Below the pieces are notes generated by a model that did no database searches, was not told the DNA's origin, and worked only from the letters and a program-made list of their open reading frames with translations. A stretch of 51,818 nucleotides of DNA, taken from an uncultured Bacteroidia bacterium. GTDB taxonomy: Bacteria > Bacteroidota > Bacteroidia > Bacteroidales > F082. The DNA lies in the NCBI GenBank assembly GCA_902770835.1, contig CACXUM010000018.1, positions 1-51,818 of the forward strand, read 5' to 3'. Position 1 is the stretch's first letter, and each line of letters begins with the position of its first letter. Of this stretch, positions 13,029-20,423 are shown in pieces. The translations under genes were made by a program, and so were the position numbers.

Positions 13029-14600
13029 ATGGGCGCATATATCAATTTGGGAAATTTCGGATTCCAAAGGGTAAGAAACAGTGAATATGTTGACAAGTCG
13101 GGGCTTATCGCTATAGTCAACAGTACGCTTTTCACCGAGCGTAGTTTTAGTTGCGTTTCGCGTAGTCGTCGTTTTGGCAAGTCGGTGGCTGCCAAGATGT
13201 TATGTGCCTATTACGACCAATCGTGCGACTCGCGCCACCTTTTCACCGACCTTGAAATTGCCTCCGACCCTTCGTTTGAGAAACATTTGAACAAGTACCC
13301 CGTCATTTTCCTCGACATGACTAATTTCACCACACGTTTCAAGGACGACAGCATCATGGAACATGTGCAAAAGGAATTGAAGGAGGACATACACGAGGCC
13401 TATCCGGATATTCCTGTCAAGGATGACGATGACTTGATGGCTTACCTTATTCGCGTCACGGATTCCACCCATCAACCGTTCATCTTCATCATCGACGAAT
13501 GGGATGCCATCTGCCGTGAGTTCAAGACGGGCACGCACGCCATGGACGAATATGTCAGTTGGCTGCGCCGTATGTTCAAGGGAAGCAATTCCCCACAGGT
13601 GTTCGCAGGCGTTTATATGACGGGTATTTTGCCCATCAAGAAGTACAAGACCGAATCCGCGCTCAACAATTTCATTGAGTATTCGATGGTGGAGCCTGTT
13701 GATATGGCTCCTTACTTCGGATTTACGAAAGATGAGGTAAAAATCCTTGCAGAAAACCATAAAATGGACTTCGATGAATTAGAGAAGTGGTACGATGGCT
13801 ATCAGATTGGGGATGAGCAGTCCATCTTCAACCCTAACTCGGTGATGCAGGCGCTTCGGAGCCGTCGTTGTCGCAGTTTTTGGGCCACAACGGGTTCATA
13901 CGATGCTGTGGCGCATTACATTCAGATGAATTACGAGGGACTGAAGGACGATGTGGTGCAGATGTTGGCTGGAGAACGTTGTAAAGTAAACCCTACCAAG
14001 TTCCAGAATGACATGTCCATCATCGGGGGTAAAGATGATGTGCTCACGGTACTCATCCATTTGGGCTACCTCAGTTACGACTGGCGTAAGGATGAGTGTT
14101 ACATCCCGAATAAGGAAGTGGCCGGCGAGATTGTTAACGCAGTGCAGTCCAACAACTGGACTCATGTGGTGAAGGCTGTGGAAGCCTCGGAGCAACTCCT
14201 TCAGGCCACCCTCCGTGGAGATGAAGTGGCTGTGGCGCGTGGCGTGGATGCTGCCCATGACGAGAACACCAGCATATTGAGCTACAACGACGAGAACTCG
14301 TTGGCTTGTGTGCTCAGCATTGCCTATTATTACGCTTCCAACGACTATATCATTCACCGCGAGTTGGCCACGGGCAAGGGCTTTGCCGATTTGGTGCTCA
14401 TCCCTCGAAAGAATGTCGATTCGCCCGCCATCGTCATCGAATTGAAATACGACAAGGCCGTTGATACCGCAATCGAGCAAATCAAGCGCAGGCAGTATCC
14501 CGATAAGGTTGCGCAGTATGCCGACCGTTTGCTGCTTGTGGGCATCACTTACGACCGCGAAAGCAAGCAGCATCATTGCCGCATCGAAAGGCTTGCGTGA
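13029..14600 (+). CDS. AAA-ATPase-like protein with C-terminal PD-(D/E)XK nuclease-fold domain (DUF1703 type)
   Basis: A 523-residue protein of the AAA-ATPase_like/PDDEXK_9 architecture. The N-terminus has YINLGNFGFQRVRNSEYVDK, followed by the modified Walker A SRSRRFGKS (residues ~44-52) and a Walker B-like FIFIIDEWD. The C-terminus carries GFADLVLIPR and IVIELKYDK, the D…ExK pattern of a nuclease-fold domain. These proteins are very numerous in gut Bacteroidales; their function is not established. The start at 13029 is set by the promoter just upstream. It is a stand-alone gene, ending at a terminator shared with the converging lemA. A distant paralogue pair lies at 50002-51818. Confidence 0.85.
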   Translation: MGAYINLGNFGFQRVRNSEYVDKSGLIAIVNSTLFTERSFSCVSRSRRFGKSVAAKMLCAYYDQSCDSRHLFTDLEIASDPSFEKHLNKYPVIFLDMTNFTTRFKDDSIMEHVQKELKEDIHEAYPDIPVKDDDDLMAYLIRVTDSTHQPFIFIIDEWDAICREFKTGTHAMDEYVSWLRRMFKGSNSPQVFAGVYMTGILPIKKYKTESALNNFIEYSMVEPVDMAPYFGFTKDEVKILAENHKMDFDELEKWYDGYQIGDEQSIFNPNSVMQALRSRRCRSFWATTGSYDAVAHYIQMNYEGLKDDVVQMLAGERCKVNPTKFQNDMSIIGGKDDVLTVLIHLGYLSYDWRKDECYIPNKEVAGEIVNAVQSNNWTHVVKAVEASEQLLQATLRGDEVAVARGVDAAHDENTSILSYNDENSLACVLSIAYYYASNDYIIHRELATGKGFADLVLIPRKNVDSPAIVIELKYDKAVDTAIEQIKRRQYPDKVAQYADRLLLVGITYDRESKQHHCRIERLA

Positions 14601-14620
14601 TATTGGGCATTTGAACAAAA

Positions 14621-14656
14621 AAATCGGGCAGAAACATCAAGTTCTCTGCCCGATTT
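14621..14656. terminator. Bidirectional terminator between the ATPase gene and lemA
   Basis: AAATCGGGCAGA (14621-14632) pairs perfectly with TCTGCCCGATTT (14645-14656). It is flanked by an A-run (14617-14623) that would be a U-run for the minus-strand transcript, so it can end both the ATPase gene (+) and the pyrI-lemA transcript (-). Confidence 0.8.
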
Positions 14657-14675
14657 TCATTATGTCCAAGGCCAA

Positions 14676-15254
14676 TCAAAATGTTTCTGGCACTTTGTCA
14701 GCCCCGGCATCAGCCTCGAAATAAGGCCGCTTCTCGAAGCCGAACATCTTGGCAATCAAGCTGCTCGGAAACTTGCGTATGCTTTGGTTGTAAACCTTGG
14801 CGGTTTCGTTGAAGCGGTTTCGCTCGGTGAGAATGCGGTTCTCGCAGCCCGCCAATTGCGCCTGCAAGGTGAGATACTCCTCGTTGGCTTTCAAATCGGG
14901 ATAGTTCTCGACTGAAACGATAAGTCGGTTAAGGGAGTTGCCCAACTCGTCTTGTGTGGTTTCAAAATTGGCAAACTCGTTCTCGTCGAAGTTTTCCGTG
15001 TTGACGGCGGCTTTGGCGGCCTTGGCGCGGGCTTCGGTCACGGCCAAAATTGTACCTTGTTCATACTCAGCGTAGTTCTTCACCAAGGCGACGAGGTTAG
15101 GCACAAGGTCGGCGCGGCGTTGGTAGACATTCTCCACCTGACCCCAAGCCGTGGTCATGGCCTCTTGCTTCTTGACGAAACCATTGTAGGTGCCGATGCC
15201 CCAAATGAGGATGACACCCACAATGATGGCGATAATAATGCCTGTTTTTTTCAT
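14676..15254 (-). CDS. lemA: LemA family membrane protein
   Basis: A 192-residue protein. It begins MKKTGIIIAIIVGVILIWGI, a single N-terminal membrane segment, then the LemA core with WGQVENVYQRRADLVPNLV and the coiled-coil helices of the LemA fold. The C-terminus FEKRPYFEADAGADKVPETF is typical of LemA. The role of LemA is unclear; in Listeria it is linked to antigen presentation, and elsewhere to membrane stress. I start at the ATG at 15254 rather than an upstream in-frame codon because the membrane segment begins there and pyrI ends just 2 bases upstream. It is therefore cotranscribed with pyrI. Confidence 0.93.
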   Translation of the reverse strand: MKKTGIIIAIIVGVILIWGIGTYNGFVKKQEAMTTAWGQVENVYQRRADLVPNLVALVKNYAEYEQGTILAVTEARAKAAKAAVNTENFDENEFANFETTQDELGNSLNRLIVSVENYPDLKANEEYLTLQAQLAGCENRILTERNRFNETAKVYNQSIRKFPSSLIAKMFGFEKRPYFEADAGADKVPETF

Positions 15255-15256
15255 AA

Positions 15257-15724
15257 TCAAATGAATTCCAGCTTGTCTTGCGTGGTGTTCTTTTCGCAAT
15301 AGTGGCAGTGCAGCTTGATGTTGCCCTCAGCGTCCTTAATCACGGTGAACTTGGTCGGCACGTCGTGTTCCTTGTTGGTGACGCAGTTCGGGTTGAAGCA
15401 CTTCACGATGTTCTCGATGCGCTCCGGGATGGTCACTGTCTGTTTCCTGATGACCTCGAAGTCCTTGATTTCGATGATGGAAGCGGTGGGGGCGACCAAG
15501 GCAATCTTGTTCACGTCTTCGGGCGCGAAGTATTTGTCGGAGGCTTTGACGAAGCCCTTTGTGCCGTACTTCTTGCTCTCCACGTTGGTGCCGAAATACA
15601 CGGGTGTGGTGACTTTCTCCAAGCCCAGAATCTTGACTACTTGGAACACCTTGTCGGCGGGAATATGGTCGATGACGGTGCCATTCTCAATGGCGCTAAC
15701 GGTCAGTTCTTTCTTTTTTTCCAT
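15257..15724 (-). CDS. pyrI: Aspartate carbamoyltransferase regulatory subunit
   Basis: A 155-residue protein matching PyrI. The allosteric nucleotide-binding domain is N-terminal (LTVSAIENGTVIDHIPADK, close to the family start), and the zinc domain has Cys109, Cys114, Cys140 and Cys143 (CFNPNC … CHYC). PyrI binds CTP/ATP and, with the PyrB trimers, forms the regulated ATCase that makes carbamoyl-aspartate in pyrimidine synthesis. Unlike the usual tight pyrBI pair, it lies 172 bases behind pyrB and has a promoter-like element of its own at 15781-15788. lemA follows after 2 bases. Confidence 0.96.
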   Translation of the reverse strand: MEKKKELTVSAIENGTVIDHIPADKVFQVVKILGLEKVTTPVYFGTNVESKKYGTKGFVKASDKYFAPEDVNKIALVAPTASIIEIKDFEVIRKQTVTIPERIENIVKCFNPNCVTNKEHDVPTKFTVIKDAEGNIKLHCHYCEKNTTQDKLEFI

Positions 15725-15758
15725 AGTGTTGTGTGTTTGTTGTTTGTCTTATGTGGGA

Positions 15759-15788
15759 TACACTTAGTGTAGAAATCGTTCAAAAATA
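15759..15788 (-). promoter_or_regulatory. Candidate pyrI promoter with dyad at the start site
   Basis: On the minus strand TATTTTTG (15788-15781) matches the -7 consensus. About 10 bases downstream, around the expected start of transcription, lies a perfect interrupted dyad TACACT-T-AGTGTA (15759-15771), a possible operator. No -33 TTTG at 19 bases is visible. The rest of the pyrB-pyrI gap is AT-rich, with repeated AAAATCAAT-like words; a small TTTGC/GCAAA hairpin follows the pyrB stop codon but has no T-run. Confidence 0.45.
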
Positions 15789-15896
15789 TATCTCAAAATC
15801 TTCTAAAATCCGATTTCGAATCTTTTTATCATTGTTTTGATTTTTTATTGATTTTATATTGATTTTTGACAGATTTCTTTGCGAAGCAAATACCAA

Positions 15897-16817
15897 TCAT
15901 TTTAATCCTAAAATTGAAGCGATGAGTGCCTGACGGGCATAAACGCCGTTTTGTGCTTGTTGGAAGTAGTATGCCTTCGGGTTGGCATCGACATCCACAT
16001 GGATCTCGTTGACGCGCGGCAGCGGGTGCAGCACACGGCAATTGGGCTTCGATGCGTCGAGCATGGCGTTGCGCAGCACGTATGAGTTCTTCACCTTCTC
16101 GTATTCCTCTGGGTCGGGGAAGCGCTCGCGCTGGATGCGGGTCATGTAGATGATGTCGGAGTGGGGAATGGCGTCCTCCAATTCGGTGTACTGGTGATAT
16201 TCCAGTTTGCGGTCCTTGATGTGCTGCTTGACGACACTCGGCAGCTTTAACTCGACAGGCGAGACCAAGTTGAACTTCGCATTGAAGTGGCACATGGCCT
16301 CCACGAGGCTGTGGACGGTGCGGCCGTATTTCAGGTCGCCGACGAGGGTAATCTCCAGATTTTCAAGTGTTCCCTGTGTCTTGCGGATGCTGTAGAGGTC
16401 GAGCATACATTGGGTGGGATGCTGGTTGGCACCGTCGCCCGCGTTGATGACCGGCACTTTCGACACTTCGGAGGCAAAACGCGCCGAGCCTTCGATGGGG
16501 TTGCGCATGACGATGAGGTCGGCATAGCTGGCCACCATCGTGATAGTGTCGGCAAGGGATTCGCCCTTCTGGATGCTCGTTCCCGCCGTGCTGCTGAATC
16601 CGATGACATTGCCGCCCAAGAGTTGGATGGCCGTCTCGAAACTCAAGCGGGTGCGCGTCGATGGCTCGAAGAACAGCGAGGCGATGATGCGCCCGTTCAG
16701 CAGGTTCTGGTGCGGGTTTTTCTCAAAGTCCTCGGCGATGTCGAGGACGTGGCAGATTTCCTCAGGCGTGTAGTCGCTGATGGAAATCAGGCTGCGGTTT
16801 TTCAGTGAAATTGACAT
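15897..16817 (-). CDS. pyrB: Aspartate carbamoyltransferase catalytic subunit
   Basis: A 306-residue ATCase catalytic chain of standard length. Seen are the carbamoyl-phosphate motif [12 protein letters not shown] with STRTR at 53-57, the [11 protein letters not shown] loop, and HPLPRVNEI near the C-terminus. It catalyses the first committed step of pyrimidine synthesis (carbamoyl phosphate plus aspartate). It is transcribed from 16974-16981 through a ~150-base leader that contains an attenuator-like hairpin and an overlapping short ORF. The partner pyrI is downstream. Divergent argS lies on the other side. Confidence 0.97.
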
Positions 16818-16966
16818 AGGCTTATCGATTTAGTTTGTTGATATTGCAAAAAAAAGACGGCCAACAATGTGACCGCCAAATATGATAAAAAAGGAAAACT
16901 CACGGTGAGGGAACAAGTTGATTCCCAAGTTTCAATCTTTTCCGATGGCTTGATTAAGTACCTCAT
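16802..16966 (-). CDS. Possible leader peptide ORF overlapping the pyrB start
   Basis: A 54-codon ORF starts at ATG 16966 ([12 protein letters not shown]…) and stops with TGA at 16804-16802, 16 bases inside pyrB. It crosses the whole attenuator-like hairpin and its U-run, the same layout as the E. coli pyrL leader ahead of pyrBI. The ATG would be almost at the 5' end of the transcript set by the -7 box, so it might be leaderless; an in-frame GTG within ...CTCACC-GTG-AGT is an alternative start. The peptide itself matches nothing I know, and whether it is translated is unproven. Confidence 0.4.
16848..16877 (-). terminator. Attenuator-like terminator in the pyrB leader
   Basis: On the minus strand GGCGGTC (16877-16871) pairs with GGCCGTC (16862-16856), 7 bp including two G-U pairs, around the loop ACATTGTT. 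Eight U residues follow (16855-16848). It lies ~30 bases upstream of the pyrB ATG. Just before it is a U-rich stretch (TTTTCCTTTTTTATC), as expected for a UTP-sensitive pause region. Confidence 0.65.
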
Positions 16967-16973
16967 CGGACTG

Positions 16974-17002
16974 CAAAGATAGGAAAGTTTTCTTTTTCGC
17001 AA
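16974..17002 (-). promoter_or_regulatory. pyrB promoter
   Basis: On the minus strand TATCTTTG (16981-16974) is a perfect -7 element, with TTG (17002-17000) 18 bases upstream as a -33 element. Downstream the leader contains TCCGAT/ATCGGA (16970-16965 with 16946-16941), GGGAA/TTCCC and CTCA/TGAG stem-loops before the terminator-like hairpin. Confidence 0.65.
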
Positions 17003-17044
17003 GGGAAAAAACGAAAAAATATAAGGGGTTTTGTTGAAGTTTTG

Positions 17045-17052
17045 TACTTTTG
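17045..17052 (+). promoter_or_regulatory. argS promoter -7 element
   Basis: TACTTTTG, a match to TAnnTTTG, lies 22 bases upstream of the argS ATG at 17075. No good -33 element is seen. It is back to back with the pyrB promoter about 65 bases away. Confidence 0.5.
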
Positions 17053-17074
17053 CAATCAGAAAAACCAAGTTAAT

Positions 17075-18886
17075 ATGTTAGAACAAGTACTAAGACAGTT
17101 ATTCATAGAGTCATTCAAAACTTTATATGGACAAGAACCGCCTGTGCAGCAGGTGAATTTCCAAAAAACGCGCCCTGAGTTTGATGGCGACATGACCATT
17201 GTGGTGTTCCCCTTCGGGAAATTGGCAGGCCGCAATCCTGAGCAATTGGCCAACGAAATGGGTGCCGAGATGATCAAGGAATCGGACATGATTGCCAAGT
17301 TCAATGTGGTGAAAGGTTTCCTTAACTTGTTGATTTCCGACAAGTTCTGGATGGATTTCTTCAAGGCGAACCACGAGAATCGCGACTTTGGCCGCAAACC
17401 CACTTCGGGAAAGAACGTGGTCATCGAGTATTCCTCGCCCAACACGAACAAACCTTTGCACTTGGGCCATATCCGCAATAATTTGCTCGGCTGGAGCGTA
17501 TCGGAAATCATGAAGGCCAATGGCAAGAAAGTGGTGCGCGTCAACCTCGTGAACGACAGAGGAATACATATCTGCAAGAGCATGTTGGCTTGGCAGAAGT
17601 GGGGCAACGGCTGCACACCCGAATCGACGGGAAAGAAGGGCGACCACCTCATTGGCGACTTTTATGTGCTGTTCGACAAGAAATATAAAGAGGAGTTGAA
17701 AACCCTTCTGCCTGAGAATTTTGCCGCGTTGAGCGAGAAGGAACAAGAGGAAGCCAAAGCCAAGGCAGAAGCCGAATCCACACTGATGAAGGAAGCCCGT
17801 GAGATGTTAGTGAAATGGGAGGCCAACGACCCCGAGGTGCGACACCTGTGGGAAACGATGAACCAATGGGTGTATGACGGCTTCGATGTGACCTACAAGC
17901 GCATGGGCGTGGCCTTCGAGAAGATTTACTACGAATCGCAGACCTATCTTTTGGGTAAGGCATTGGTGCAGGAAGGCCTTGAAAAAGGCGTGCTCTATCG
18001 CCGCGACGACAACTCCGTGTGGTGCGACCTCCGCGATGAAGGCTTGGACGAAAAACTCCTGCTTCGCCGCGACGGCACCTCGGTCTATATGACCCAAGAC
18101 CTTGGCACTGCCCAGCTTCGCGTCAATGAATACGACCCTGAAAAACTGATTTATGTTGTTGGAAACGAGCAGATTTACCACTTCGATGTGCTGAAGCGCG
18201 TGTTGGTACGTCTCGGTCGTGAGTGGGGCAACGATATTGAGCACCTTTCCTACGGTATGGTTGAATTGCCCAACGGCAAGATGAAGTCTCGCGAGGGAAC
18301 GGTGGTGGATGCTGATGACCTCATGGATGAGATGGTGGCCACAGCCAAGGCTGTTTCCGACGAACTCGGCAAGGCCAAAGACCTCACGCCCGAGGAAGCC
18401 GACAAACTCTATCATACGATTGGTTTGGGTGCTTTGAAATACTTCATCCTCAAGGTCGATCCGAAAAAGACCATGCTCTTCAATCCCGCTGAGTCTATCG
18501 ACTTTAACGGAAACACTGGCCCGTTTGTGCAATACACCCACGCGCGTATCTGTTCAGTTTTGCGCAAGGCTGAAGAACAAGGTATCAAGCTCGAAAGCGA
18601 GGTGAAGGTCAGCGACTTGCAACCCAAAGAGAAGGAAATCATCGTGATGATGTATGGCTGGCCGATAGTGCTGAACCAAGCCGCCGAAAACCGCAGCCCC
18701 GCGATGATTGCCAATTTCATTTTCGACCTCGCCAAAGAATTCAACCAGTTCTATCAAGAATGCAGCATCCTGAAGGAGTCTGACACCGACCGTAGAATGT
18801 TTCGCTTGCAGGTCTGCGACATGGTTGCGGCCTTGCTGAGGAATGCATCGGAATTGCTCGGAATTGGAATGCCAGAGAGAATGTGA
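17075..18886 (+). CDS. argS: Arginyl-tRNA synthetase
   Basis: A 603-residue class I aminoacyl-tRNA synthetase. The N-terminal additional domain recognises the tRNA D-loop, the HIGH motif appears as PLHLGHIRNN (HLGH at 129-132), the KMSKS equivalent is KMKSREGTVVDADD, and the C-terminal anticodon-binding helical domain ends LLGIGMPERM. It charges tRNA-Arg. I start at ATG 17075 because the -7 element lies between that codon and an earlier in-frame TTG. The gene stands alone; an inverted-repeat element follows it. Confidence 0.96.
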   Translation: MLEQVLRQLFIESFKTLYGQEPPVQQVNFQKTRPEFDGDMTIVVFPFGKLAGRNPEQLANEMGAEMIKESDMIAKFNVVKGFLNLLISDKFWMDFFKANHENRDFGRKPTSGKNVVIEYSSPNTNKPLHLGHIRNNLLGWSVSEIMKANGKKVVRVNLVNDRGIHICKSMLAWQKWGNGCTPESTGKKGDHLIGDFYVLFDKKYKEELKTLLPENFAALSEKEQEEAKAKAEAESTLMKEAREMLVKWEANDPEVRHLWETMNQWVYDGFDVTYKRMGVAFEKIYYESQTYLLGKALVQEGLEKGVLYRRDDNSVWCDLRDEGLDEKLLLRRDGTSVYMTQDLGTAQLRVNEYDPEKLIYVVGNEQIYHFDVLKRVLVRLGREWGNDIEHLSYGMVELPNGKMKSREGTVVDADDLMDEMVATAKAVSDELGKAKDLTPEEADKLYHTIGLGALKYFILKVDPKKTMLFNPAESIDFNGNTGPFVQYTHARICSVLRKAEEQGIKLESEVKVSDLQPKEKEIIVMMYGWPIVLNQAAENRSPAMIANFIFDLAKEFNQFYQECSILKESDTDRRMFRLQVCDMVAALLRNASELLGIGMPERM

Positions 18887-18897
18887 TTATGAAATGG

Positions 18898-19058
18898 AAC
18901 TACGAATTTCACGAATGTAACGAATGGTTTTGTAAGAGTTTTGCAGCCAAGGCTGCGGAATTATACGAATTTATTCGGTTCTCCATTCGTATTCATCCGC
19001 AACGAAGTTGCAAATTTTCATTCGTACAAAATTCGCATTATTCGTGTAATTCGTAGTT
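18898..19058. repeat. 161-bp extragenic inverted-repeat element with nested hairpins
   Basis: The ends are imperfect inverted repeats: AACTACGAATTtCACGAAT on the left (from 18898) and its complement on the right (to 19058). Inside are many ACGAAT/ATTCGT words in both directions, plus two perfect small hairpins: GCAGCC-AA-GGCTGC (18943-18956) and GCAAC-GAA-GTTGC (18999-19011). It contains no ORF and fills the argS-rsmE gap. The structure resembles a MITE or REP-like element; I see no target-site duplication I can defend. Confidence 0.65.
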
Positions 19059-19071
19059 AAATTAGCATCCA

Positions 19072-19779
19072 ATGAACGTTTTCTACATACCCAACGCAAA
19101 AGAAGGCCTAACCACCCTCCCCGAGGACGAGTCGAAGCACTGCGTCAAGGTGCTGCGCATGACCGAAGGCGAGCGGTTCTGCGTCACCAATGGAGAAGGC
19201 TATCTCTTTGATGCAGAATTGGTTGAGGCCTTGCCCAAGCGGGCCACCGTCAACCTGACGAACCAGCGCAAAGGGTATGACCATTGGAACTTCAAGCTCG
19301 AAATCGCCATCGCGCCGACCAAACTCAACGAGCGTACGGAGTGGTTCTTGGAGAAGGCCACAGAAATCGGCATTGACAAAGTGAGATTGTTCACCTCGTA
19401 CCATTCCGAGCGTCGCGCCGCCAATGTGGAGCGTTTCCAAAAGGTGATGGTCGCGGCAATGAAGCAGAGCATCAAGTCGCGCCTGCCTAAGGTGGAGGAT
19501 TTGGTGCCGTTTGAGAAATTGGTAAAGCAACCCTTTGAGGGTCAGAAGTTTATCGCGTGGATTGACGACGATGTGAAAGACTGCCTTTGCGACCTATATA
19601 ATAAAGGTGCAAACGCCTTGGTGCTCATCGGGCCCGAAGGCGACTTCAGTCCAGAGGAAGTGACCTTGGCCAAGGAAAATGGCTTCGTGCCGTGCAGCCT
19701 TGGTGAGGCACGTTTGCGTACCGAAACGGCGGCTCTCGTGGCTTGCCATACGATTCAACTCATTAATCAGATGAAATGA
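19072..19779 (+). CDS. rsmE: 16S rRNA (uracil(1498)-N(3))-methyltransferase
   Basis: A 235-residue protein of the RsmE SPOUT methyltransferase family. It has the N-terminal PUA-like part (FYIPNAKEG … HCVKVLRMTEGE) and the SAM-binding knot with LIGPEGDFSPEEV (IGPEGDFS at 186-193) and SLGEARLRTETA (209-220). It methylates U1498 of 16S rRNA in the assembled 30S subunit. The stop codon overlaps the ATG of the DUF4159 gene by four bases (ATGA at 19776), so the two are coupled, though no shared function is known. Confidence 0.95.
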   Translation: MNVFYIPNAKEGLTTLPEDESKHCVKVLRMTEGERFCVTNGEGYLFDAELVEALPKRATVNLTNQRKGYDHWNFKLEIAIAPTKLNERTEWFLEKATEIGIDKVRLFTSYHSERRAANVERFQKVMVAAMKQSIKSRLPKVEDLVPFEKLVKQPFEGQKFIAWIDDDVKDCLCDLYNKGANALVLIGPEGDFSPEEVTLAKENGFVPCSLGEARLRTETAALVACHTIQLINQMK

Positions 19780-20423
19780 AAAAGTTGTTGATACTTATAT
19801 GGTTGTCGTTTTCCTTCGTTGCTTCGGCTCAGCAGCTCAACATCGCCTTGCTGAAATATCGAGGGGGAGGAGATTGGTACGGCAATCCTACCTCACTCCC
19901 CAATTTGGTGCGTTTCTGCAACCAAGAGATTGGCACCGACATCAACCCGAATGTGCCAACCGTGGAACCGTCGAGTCCGGATTTGTTCAATTATCCCTAC
20001 GTCTATATGACGGGTCACGGCAATGTGGTTTTCGATGCAGCTGAGGCACAAAACCTCCGAAACTACATGCTTGCTGGTGGTTTCCTCCACATTGACGACA
20101 ACTACGGCATACGCCAATACATTGAGCCTCAAATGAAAAAGGTGTTTCCCGAATTGGATTTCGTGGAGTTGCCTTATTCGCATGAGATTTTCACGAAGCC
20201 GTATTCCTTCCCGAATGGCTTGCCAAAAATCCACGAACACGACAACAAGCCGCCTCAACTTTTCGCCTTGATTTACGAAGGCCGTATCGTGTGCATCTTC
20301 ACCTACGAATGTGACCTCGGCGACGGTTGGGAAGACCAGCGCGTGCATCACGACTCGCAGGAAACTCGCGAAAAAGCACTAAAAATGGGCGCGAACATCT
20401 TACGGTATGTTTTCACAAAGTAA
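19776..20423 (+). CDS. DUF4159 domain protein, exported
   Basis: A 215-residue protein. An N-terminal signal peptide (MKKLLILIWLSFSFVASAQQ, cleavage probably after SA) is followed by a DUF4159 domain with LLKYRGGGDWYGNPTSLPNL and a YMTGHGNVVF segment, and LHIDDNYG. The domain has a glutamine-amidotransferase-like layout, but no enzymatic activity is established. It is commonly found in Bacteroidota and Planctomycetes, often near MoxR-type clusters, which are absent here. It overlaps rsmE by four bases. Confidence 0.88.
   Translation: MKKLLILIWLSFSFVASAQQLNIALLKYRGGGDWYGNPTSLPNLVRFCNQEIGTDINPNVPTVEPSSPDLFNYPYVYMTGHGNVVFDAAEAQNLRNYMLAGGFLHIDDNYGIRQYIEPQMKKVFPELDFVELPYSHEIFTKPYSFPNGLPKIHEHDNKPPQLFALIYEGRIVCIFTYECDLGDGWEDQRVHHDSQETREKALKMGANILRYVFTK

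Follow-up and report, generated by a model that had tools for sequence, protein, structure and literature searches.

What kind of element lies between the pyrB promoter and pyrB in this genome, and what signal might it read? The window, that is, the whole 51,818-nt stretch analyzed here (contig CACXUM010000018.1 of an uncultured Bacteroidia bacterium), belongs to a 3.26-Mb genome (G000) that is 86% complete. It contains a pyrBI operon on the minus strand (Table 1), with pyrB starting at ATG 16817 and argS upstream in divergent orientation; argS is transcribed away, indicating that the terminator in this interval is not the end of argS. An earlier note, made from the sequence alone, had described the interval as a pyrL-type attenuator. 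By sequence and comparison, the region carries a promoter, a terminator, an open leader ORF, U-rich RNA, a covarying 5' hairpin and a special start region, and we propose that it is probably a protein-free, translation-coupled transcription attenuator in which the 5' hairpin would gate the leader AUG. The earlier note was correct in outline, as the geometry is pyrL-like: the promoter, the terminator with U8 (by sequence and fold), the U-rich stretch, and the ORF, which runs through the terminator hairpin and overlaps the pyrB start by 16 bases, all lie where it had placed them. It missed, however, the AUG-hiding hairpin and the YYGR start region.

Table 1. Features of the pyrBI locus (window coordinates)
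Feature	Position	Strand	Basis
Promoter: TTG (-33 type) 17002-17000 and TATCTTTG 16981-16974	16974..17002	-	sequence
Start region Y-YYGR, here T-CCGA	16966..16970	-	+1 placed by the box spacing in excerpts of PMC9723704
5'-terminal hairpin P1: CCGAUG 16969-16964 with CAUCGG 16947-16942; leader AUG in the 5' arm	16942..16969	-	fold; covariation in 43 leaders
Leader ORF, 54 codons: ATG (+4) 16966, stop TGA inside pyrB	16802..16966	-	ORF list; frame conservation
Middle hairpin(s): GGGAA 16926-16922 with UUCCC 16913-16909, or CUCAC 16909-16905 with GUGAG 16903-16899	16899..16926	-	sequence, fold
U-rich stretch immediately before the terminator	16878..16898	-	sequence
Intrinsic terminator: stem 16877-16856, U8 16855-16848	16848..16877	-	sequence, fold, alignment
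pyrB, aspartate carbamoyltransferase catalytic chain	15897..16817	-	TIGR00670, 367.7 bits, cut-off 236.95 (NCBIfam)
pyrI, aspartate carbamoyltransferase regulatory chain	15257..15724	-	TIGR00240, 153.1 bits, cut-off 148.55; PF01948 and PF02748

To place the leader among its relatives, we drew pyrB upstream regions from the family and the order; the close relatives listed in the named collection are MAGs of Bacteroidales from the rumen and gut, some of them under the labels Lentimicrobiaceae or Candidatus Limimorpha. An automatic promoter and terminator caller that ignored ORFs called 145 of 237 loci, representing 119 distinct leaders. We removed L120, in which the wrong terminator had been called, and L214, which falls outside the pattern; the remaining 143 loci form 48 clusters at 75% identity, three of which (L101, L102 and L110) derive from loci lacking a family handle. 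The 92 uncalled loci include a paralogue (L002), contig ends, loci with pyrB behind another gene and the 20 G231-genus loci. Viral contigs were scanned for pyrB as well, yielding one locus, which was excluded from the analysis. The two collections overlap, and some loci are the same genome. Having a TAnnTTTG box in the corresponding position was one of the selection criteria for the 143 relatives, and the presence of box and terminator in the aligned leaders, which were preselected for both, is no evidence in itself.

In the window's genus, the leader with its hairpin and U-run was called in 60 of 68 genomes, bearing out its conservation in close relatives. Of the eight misses, two are contig ends, four have lost the leader (L016, L275, L279 and L280) and two have lost the terminator (L283 and L296). 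In the remaining genera of the family, 52 of 57 loci were called; L163, L183 and L185 were missed because their box ends in TTTA, and they fit the pattern with hand-set anchors. The terminator of L166 is degenerate by eye, and one further uncalled locus from these genera has no upstream sequence. A leader was called at least once in each of the 15 family genera covered, out of 16 (g9 was left out). Another family of the order, f80, has the leader in L196, L197 and L292, as well as in L120 when set by hand. The G231 genus (20 loci) has no leader: its box lies only 20–31 nt before the aligned pyrB start (17 distinct promoters) and was not found in two loci. Among 40 further loci, 34 were called and 6 were not, with L293 repeating the mis-call of L120. 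A model of the leader found a match in 17 of the 24 genomes of the genus and in none of 16 others, with one match per genome apart from two in G075, in a search that initially scores only part of the candidates and missed some genus leaders. Sixteen of the 18 matches adjoin pyrB, the pyrB positions of the other two not being listed, and among the matches whose place could be checked none lay at another gene. By eye, no ATG–ORF–terminator leader was seen upstream of pyrE in this genome, and no carA scored above its cut-off in the 86%-complete assembly.

The terminator has the most pairs among 8 terminator-like sites in positions 14000–20000. Since the shuffled region averages 7.1 such sites, the site alone proves nothing, and it is conservation that lifts it above chance. 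In 40 of 48 clusters, the 25 nt leading up to the stem are richer in U than the remainder of the leader, and in the other 8 they are not; the U fraction is 41–49% in the last 18 nt, as against mostly 23–34% farther up. One subgroup (L062–L076) has no U-rich stretch. The several alternative stems of the earlier note fared unevenly: the 5' hairpin and the terminator stood, whereas the rest are weak. The middle hairpin of the window, a candidate pause hairpin, was dropped as a family-wide part, as the middle stems have a mean z of -0.78 across the family and z < -1 in only 16 of 46 cases, and the whole window leader folds no better than its shuffles (z -0.71). A conserved antiterminator was likewise rejected, because sequence complementary to the left arm of the terminator is not enriched in the 48 clusters (3.27 vs 3.28 nt) and reaches at least 5 nt in only 2 of them.

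We then focused on the leader ORF. The frame of the first ATG ended no more than 16 nt short of the stem in all 48 clusters (dinucleotide shuffles, 14.8, sd 3.0), a limit that was chosen post hoc with the data already seen, and ran past the stem in 37 (shuffles, 10.0, sd 2.6); the 48 clusters share descent and hence are not independent. The remaining two frames were open equally far in 3 and 17 clusters. In the 11 clusters that stop short of full passage, the stop lies 5–16 nt before the stem (6 clusters) or inside it (5 clusters), and a ribosome at these stops would still cover part of the stem. All 7 held-out leaders with less than 90% identity reached the limit, as did all 12 that differ from every earlier leader. 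L120 and three uncalled loci did so too once their anchors were set by hand, with stops at -6, +7, +53 and +25 from the stem. The stop codon of the leader ORF and the start of pyrB overlap in 20 of the 48 clusters, with an overlap of exactly 4 nt (ATGA) in 8 of these, an arrangement like that in translational coupling. Codon positions changed 447, 685 and 567 times (135 non-independent pairs in the largest cluster), without third-position excess, indicating that the openness of the frame has been kept and the peptide has not. This result and the lack of any Pfam match for the leader peptide rule out a conserved peptide. Thus, from the comparison, it seems that translation of the leader matters, whereas its peptide does not. 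No Shine-Dalgarno site precedes the ORF in the window, only 3 nt separating the inferred start from the AUG.

The position of the ORF also bears on the class of attenuator. According to excerpts of PMC4824070, the pyrBI terminator sits within the leader gene, whereas the terminators of amino-acid attenuators lie more than 20 bp beyond it; by this criterion, an ORF that runs into or through the terminator is of the pyrBI kind and not of the amino-acid kind. In Flavobacterium psychrophilum, leader-peptide attenuators are considered likely to precede amino-acid operons (PMC9723704), and these share with the window leader an ORF and a terminator. Amino-acid attenuators use competing structures, however, whereas leaders of the window type have an ORF that ends no more than 16 nt before the stem or runs past it, and no conserved antiterminator. 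A trp-type attenuator was ruled out accordingly: the ORF does not end well before the terminator, and there is no antiterminator for the left arm.

The 5' end of the leader RNA was placed by comparison. In Flavobacterium, the TAnnTTTG box lies at -12 to -5 (excerpts of PMC9723704), and by this spacing +1 would be the fifth base after the box. The start region then reads T 16970 (-1), C 16969 (+1), C 16968 (+2), G 16967 (+3) and A 16966 (+4), the last being the A of the leader AUG. Such an AUG at +4 fits the possibly leaderless initiation raised by the earlier note, insofar as the box spacing in the excerpts of PMC9723704 applies. YYGR occupies +1 to +4 in 40 of 48 leader clusters, compared with 8 of 125 intergenic TAnnTTTG boxes in 452 kb of the same genome, and 1 of 57 among those control boxes with a -33 TTG; this 452-kb control was used because the window alone offers only 2 promoters. 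CCGA is kept in five loci that have lost hairpin and terminator (L016, L056, L275, L279 and L280, of which L056 and L280 are apparently the same contig); these losses are recent, so the motif there may be a remnant. In the leader-less G231 genus, 9 of the 17 distinct promoters have YYG at +1 to +3, and 12 of 17 satisfy a looser rule (pyrimidines from -1, G at +3 or +4), compared with 4 of the 131 other boxes in the flanking sequence, the majority of which are unlikely to be promoters. The pyrimidine-then-G start of pyrB in this leader-less genus (L219–L238) suggests that the start region predates the leader or is independent of it.

Just downstream, the leader AUG is embedded in hairpin P1. 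The 43 distinct genus leaders in the covariation alignment, every one selected for possessing a terminator, mostly retain the CCGAUG/CAUCGG stem or equivalents, with the first two pairs varying from CG to UG or UA; mismatches occur at the fourth pair in 5 leaders and at the first pair in 4. Across hairpin and terminator, pairing holds in 97.9% of cells, compared with no more than 63.4% when the alignment is slid. Two-sided changes are seen in 9 cells, against 2.5 in shuffles, with none of the 500 scoring as high; they fall in 3 pairs, a number reached by 40 of 500 shuffles. Eight of the nine cells lie in the 5' hairpin. In other genera, the arms differ (CCGGUAACAU with AUGUUAACGG; CCUGAA with UUCAGG) and the position is constant. 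The first pair of P1 is CG in 34, UA in 3 and GC in 1, and the second CG in 26, UA in 11 and GC in 1, in tallies that take partners from predicted folds and are therefore biased toward pairing. Relative to the predicted hairpin, the leader AUG lies inside in 37 of 48 clusters, at most 6 nt after it in 5 and farther away in none, 6 clusters having no hairpin; the hairpin does not beat controls in 9.

In folding calculations, removing the two 5' bases lowered hairpin stability (mean ddG -2.64 kcal/mol, versus -0.64 in controls), with the stronger effect in 39 of 48 clusters. In the window leader, the trim replaced a fold of -7.4 with a different one of -4.6, and the predicted pairing probability of the AUG fell from 0.93 to 0.28; the mean over all clusters fell from 0.62 to 0.50, indicating a strong effect in the window's subgroup and a mixed one in the other leaders. 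L061 and L063, which recur as L283 and L296, have lost the terminator and retain the start region, the hairpin and the leader AUG. In these genus members, the leader AUG lies about 37 nt before the pyrB AUG, and the hairpin thus close to pyrB; this may possibly be bare pyrC-like control.

Two E. coli systems resemble different parts of this leader. E. coli K-12 pyrL-pyrBI (NC_000913.3) involves the same operon and a leader ORF (135 bp) through the terminator, and the order of hairpin, U-rich RNA, terminator with U8 and ORF end at the pyrB start is common to both. In the window, as in the pyrL type, a terminator stands between the promoter and pyrB followed by pyrI. The ORF, the U-rich RNA, the unconserved peptide, the lack of an antiterminator and the pyrBI operon strongly support the pyrL-type layout that the earlier note had recognized. 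By contrast, the pyrL AUG is preceded by the Shine-Dalgarno sequence GGAGG, whereas in the window's genus the AUG lies 3 nt from the inferred start, within the 5' hairpin. As for kinship with enterobacterial pyrL, the comparison was made with family models: the leader peptide has no Pfam match and the leader no Rfam match. The leader would be a variant of pyrL-like attenuation, with a hairpin over the start codon of the leader ORF.

The 5' end itself resembles E. coli pyrC (L271). TCCG defines the start region of the pyrC/pyrD-type switch, and the E. coli pyrC start reportedly shifts between C and G with CTP/GTP. Here, too, pyrimidines followed by G are found at the start (YYGR, 40 of 48 clusters), and in folding the hairpin needs the first two bases and covers a translation start. 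In pyrC, TCCG(G) lies inside the 5'-terminal hairpin (UCCGG...CCGGA, compared with UCCGAUG...CAUCGGA in the window), which is weakened by loss of the two 5' bases (-8.7 to -5.8), as is the window hairpin. The pyrC hairpin adjoins the ribosome site of the enzyme gene, however, whereas that of the window, some 150 nt upstream of pyrB, covers the AUG of the leader and would not act directly on the ribosome site of the enzyme gene. The YYGR start region and the AUG-hiding hairpin suggest a sensor that acts when transcription initiates, either a second one or a different one.

These parts suggest the following mechanism. RNA polymerase would start at 16969 or nearby; a ribosome would load at once on the leader AUG, trail the polymerase and cover the left arm of the terminator, and pyrBI would be transcribed. 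With no ribosome on the leader, the terminator would form and transcription would end at U8. The hairpin holding the AUG would gate ribosome entry. The core of this proposal, that translation of the leader ORF would prevent termination, is well supported by comparison; the ORF is probably translated, and its translation would set read-through. The signal is presumably pyrimidine nucleotides, acting through the choice of start base, slow transcription of the U-rich stretch, or both, and UTP or CTP may be what is sensed. There is somewhat under an even chance, in our estimate, that the two E. coli mechanisms, a pyrC-like start switch and pyrL-type attenuation, operate here in series. At high pyrimidine levels, transcription would then start at the pyrimidine at +1, the full hairpin would close over the AUG, no ribosome would enter and pyrBI transcription would be terminated. 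At low levels, it would start at G +3, giving in this genus a near-leaderless 5'-G-AUG on which the hairpin fails; the ribosome would load, trail the polymerase and block the terminator, with slow transcription of the U-rich stretch sharpening the response. Nucleotide sensing at initiation would thus be converted into control of elongation via transcription–translation coupling. In excerpts of PMC7366714 on Bacteroides thetaiotaomicron, about 3.7% of 5' UTRs are shorter than 10 nt, and some long 5' UTRs contain short ORFs likened to attenuators, making both a near-leaderless leader ORF and attenuation plausible in the phylum.

The alternatives differ in the sensor or in the role of the leader itself. 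A plain pyrL-type attenuator shares the attenuator core with the gated attenuator that we favor; in it, the U-rich stretch would be the sole sensor: an RNA polymerase short of UTP would stall there, letting the ribosome close in and block the terminator, and the 5' hairpin would only protect the mRNA end. Although the part order is that of pyrL and U is enriched before the stem in 40 of 48 clusters, such an attenuator leaves unexplained the YYGR start region (40 of 48), the AUG in or next to the hairpin (42 of 48) and the L062–L076 leaders that lack a U-rich stretch, and we consider it doubtful. As the sensor, start choice is nearly a coin toss in our judgment and U-rich pausing alone a weaker candidate that we rate as unlikely. 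It is improbable that attenuation through leader translation answers to general translation capacity, growth rate or an amino acid rather than to pyrimidines: any change in leader translation would work through the same geometry, but no run of a single amino acid common to the leader peptides was found by eye in the peptide list, the element was found at pyrB only, as far as searched, and the unusual start region involves pyrimidines.

A regulator protein, PyrR-like or other, might bind the leader RNA and switch the terminator, the conserved 5' hairpin being a structure that a protein could bind. PyrR, however, exceeded the NF003549 cut-off in 0 of 60 family genomes, with weak matches below it in 47, and nothing in the window passed an Rfam gathering score (best E in the leader, 0.44), so that both a PyrR-controlled attenuator and a known RNA family were rejected. 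As the antiterminator is absent and the open frame would stay unexplained, we regard any such protein as very improbable. Least credible, and hardly to be expected, is a terminator that plays no part in controlling pyrBI, whether as a leftover or as the 3' end of a gene for a small RNA or small protein. The poor fold of the whole leader relative to shuffles and its loss in some relatives would fit a leftover, but its presence across the genus and in every family genus covered, and the maintained open frame, would not; nor does the unconserved peptide fit a small-protein gene.

If the gated attenuator is real, Bacteroidota, in which Shine-Dalgarno sites are scarce, would have an element that controls pyrimidine synthesis without a protein; the pyrL layout would have been reached there independently, with control of initiation and attenuation linked serially. 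Such a layout joins two E. coli control tricks and could allow nucleotide sensing without a regulatory protein. If read-through depends on leader translation, the leader would be a natural reporter, and ribosome–polymerase coupling would exist in Bacteroidota. A literature search, judged by titles and the openings of abstracts, found no paper on a pyrB leader in Bacteroidota.

Several features of the pyrB loci were noted in passing. G069 and G075 each have two equally good full-length pyrB matches on separate contigs, from duplication or assembly redundancy, and in G075 the leader is found at both copies. At the second pyrB copy of G018 (L154), a tandem pair of terminator-like hairpins with T-runs is seen by eye in the promoter–pyrB interval. 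In the window, the AT-rich gap between pyrB and pyrI (15725–15896) is 172 nt long, compared with 12 nt in E. coli. A LemA family protein (PF04011) is encoded directly downstream of pyrI on the same strand (14676–15299, minus), and a predicted AAA-ATPase with a PD-(D/E)XK nuclease domain (PF09820, PF08011) at 13029–14600 on the plus strand.
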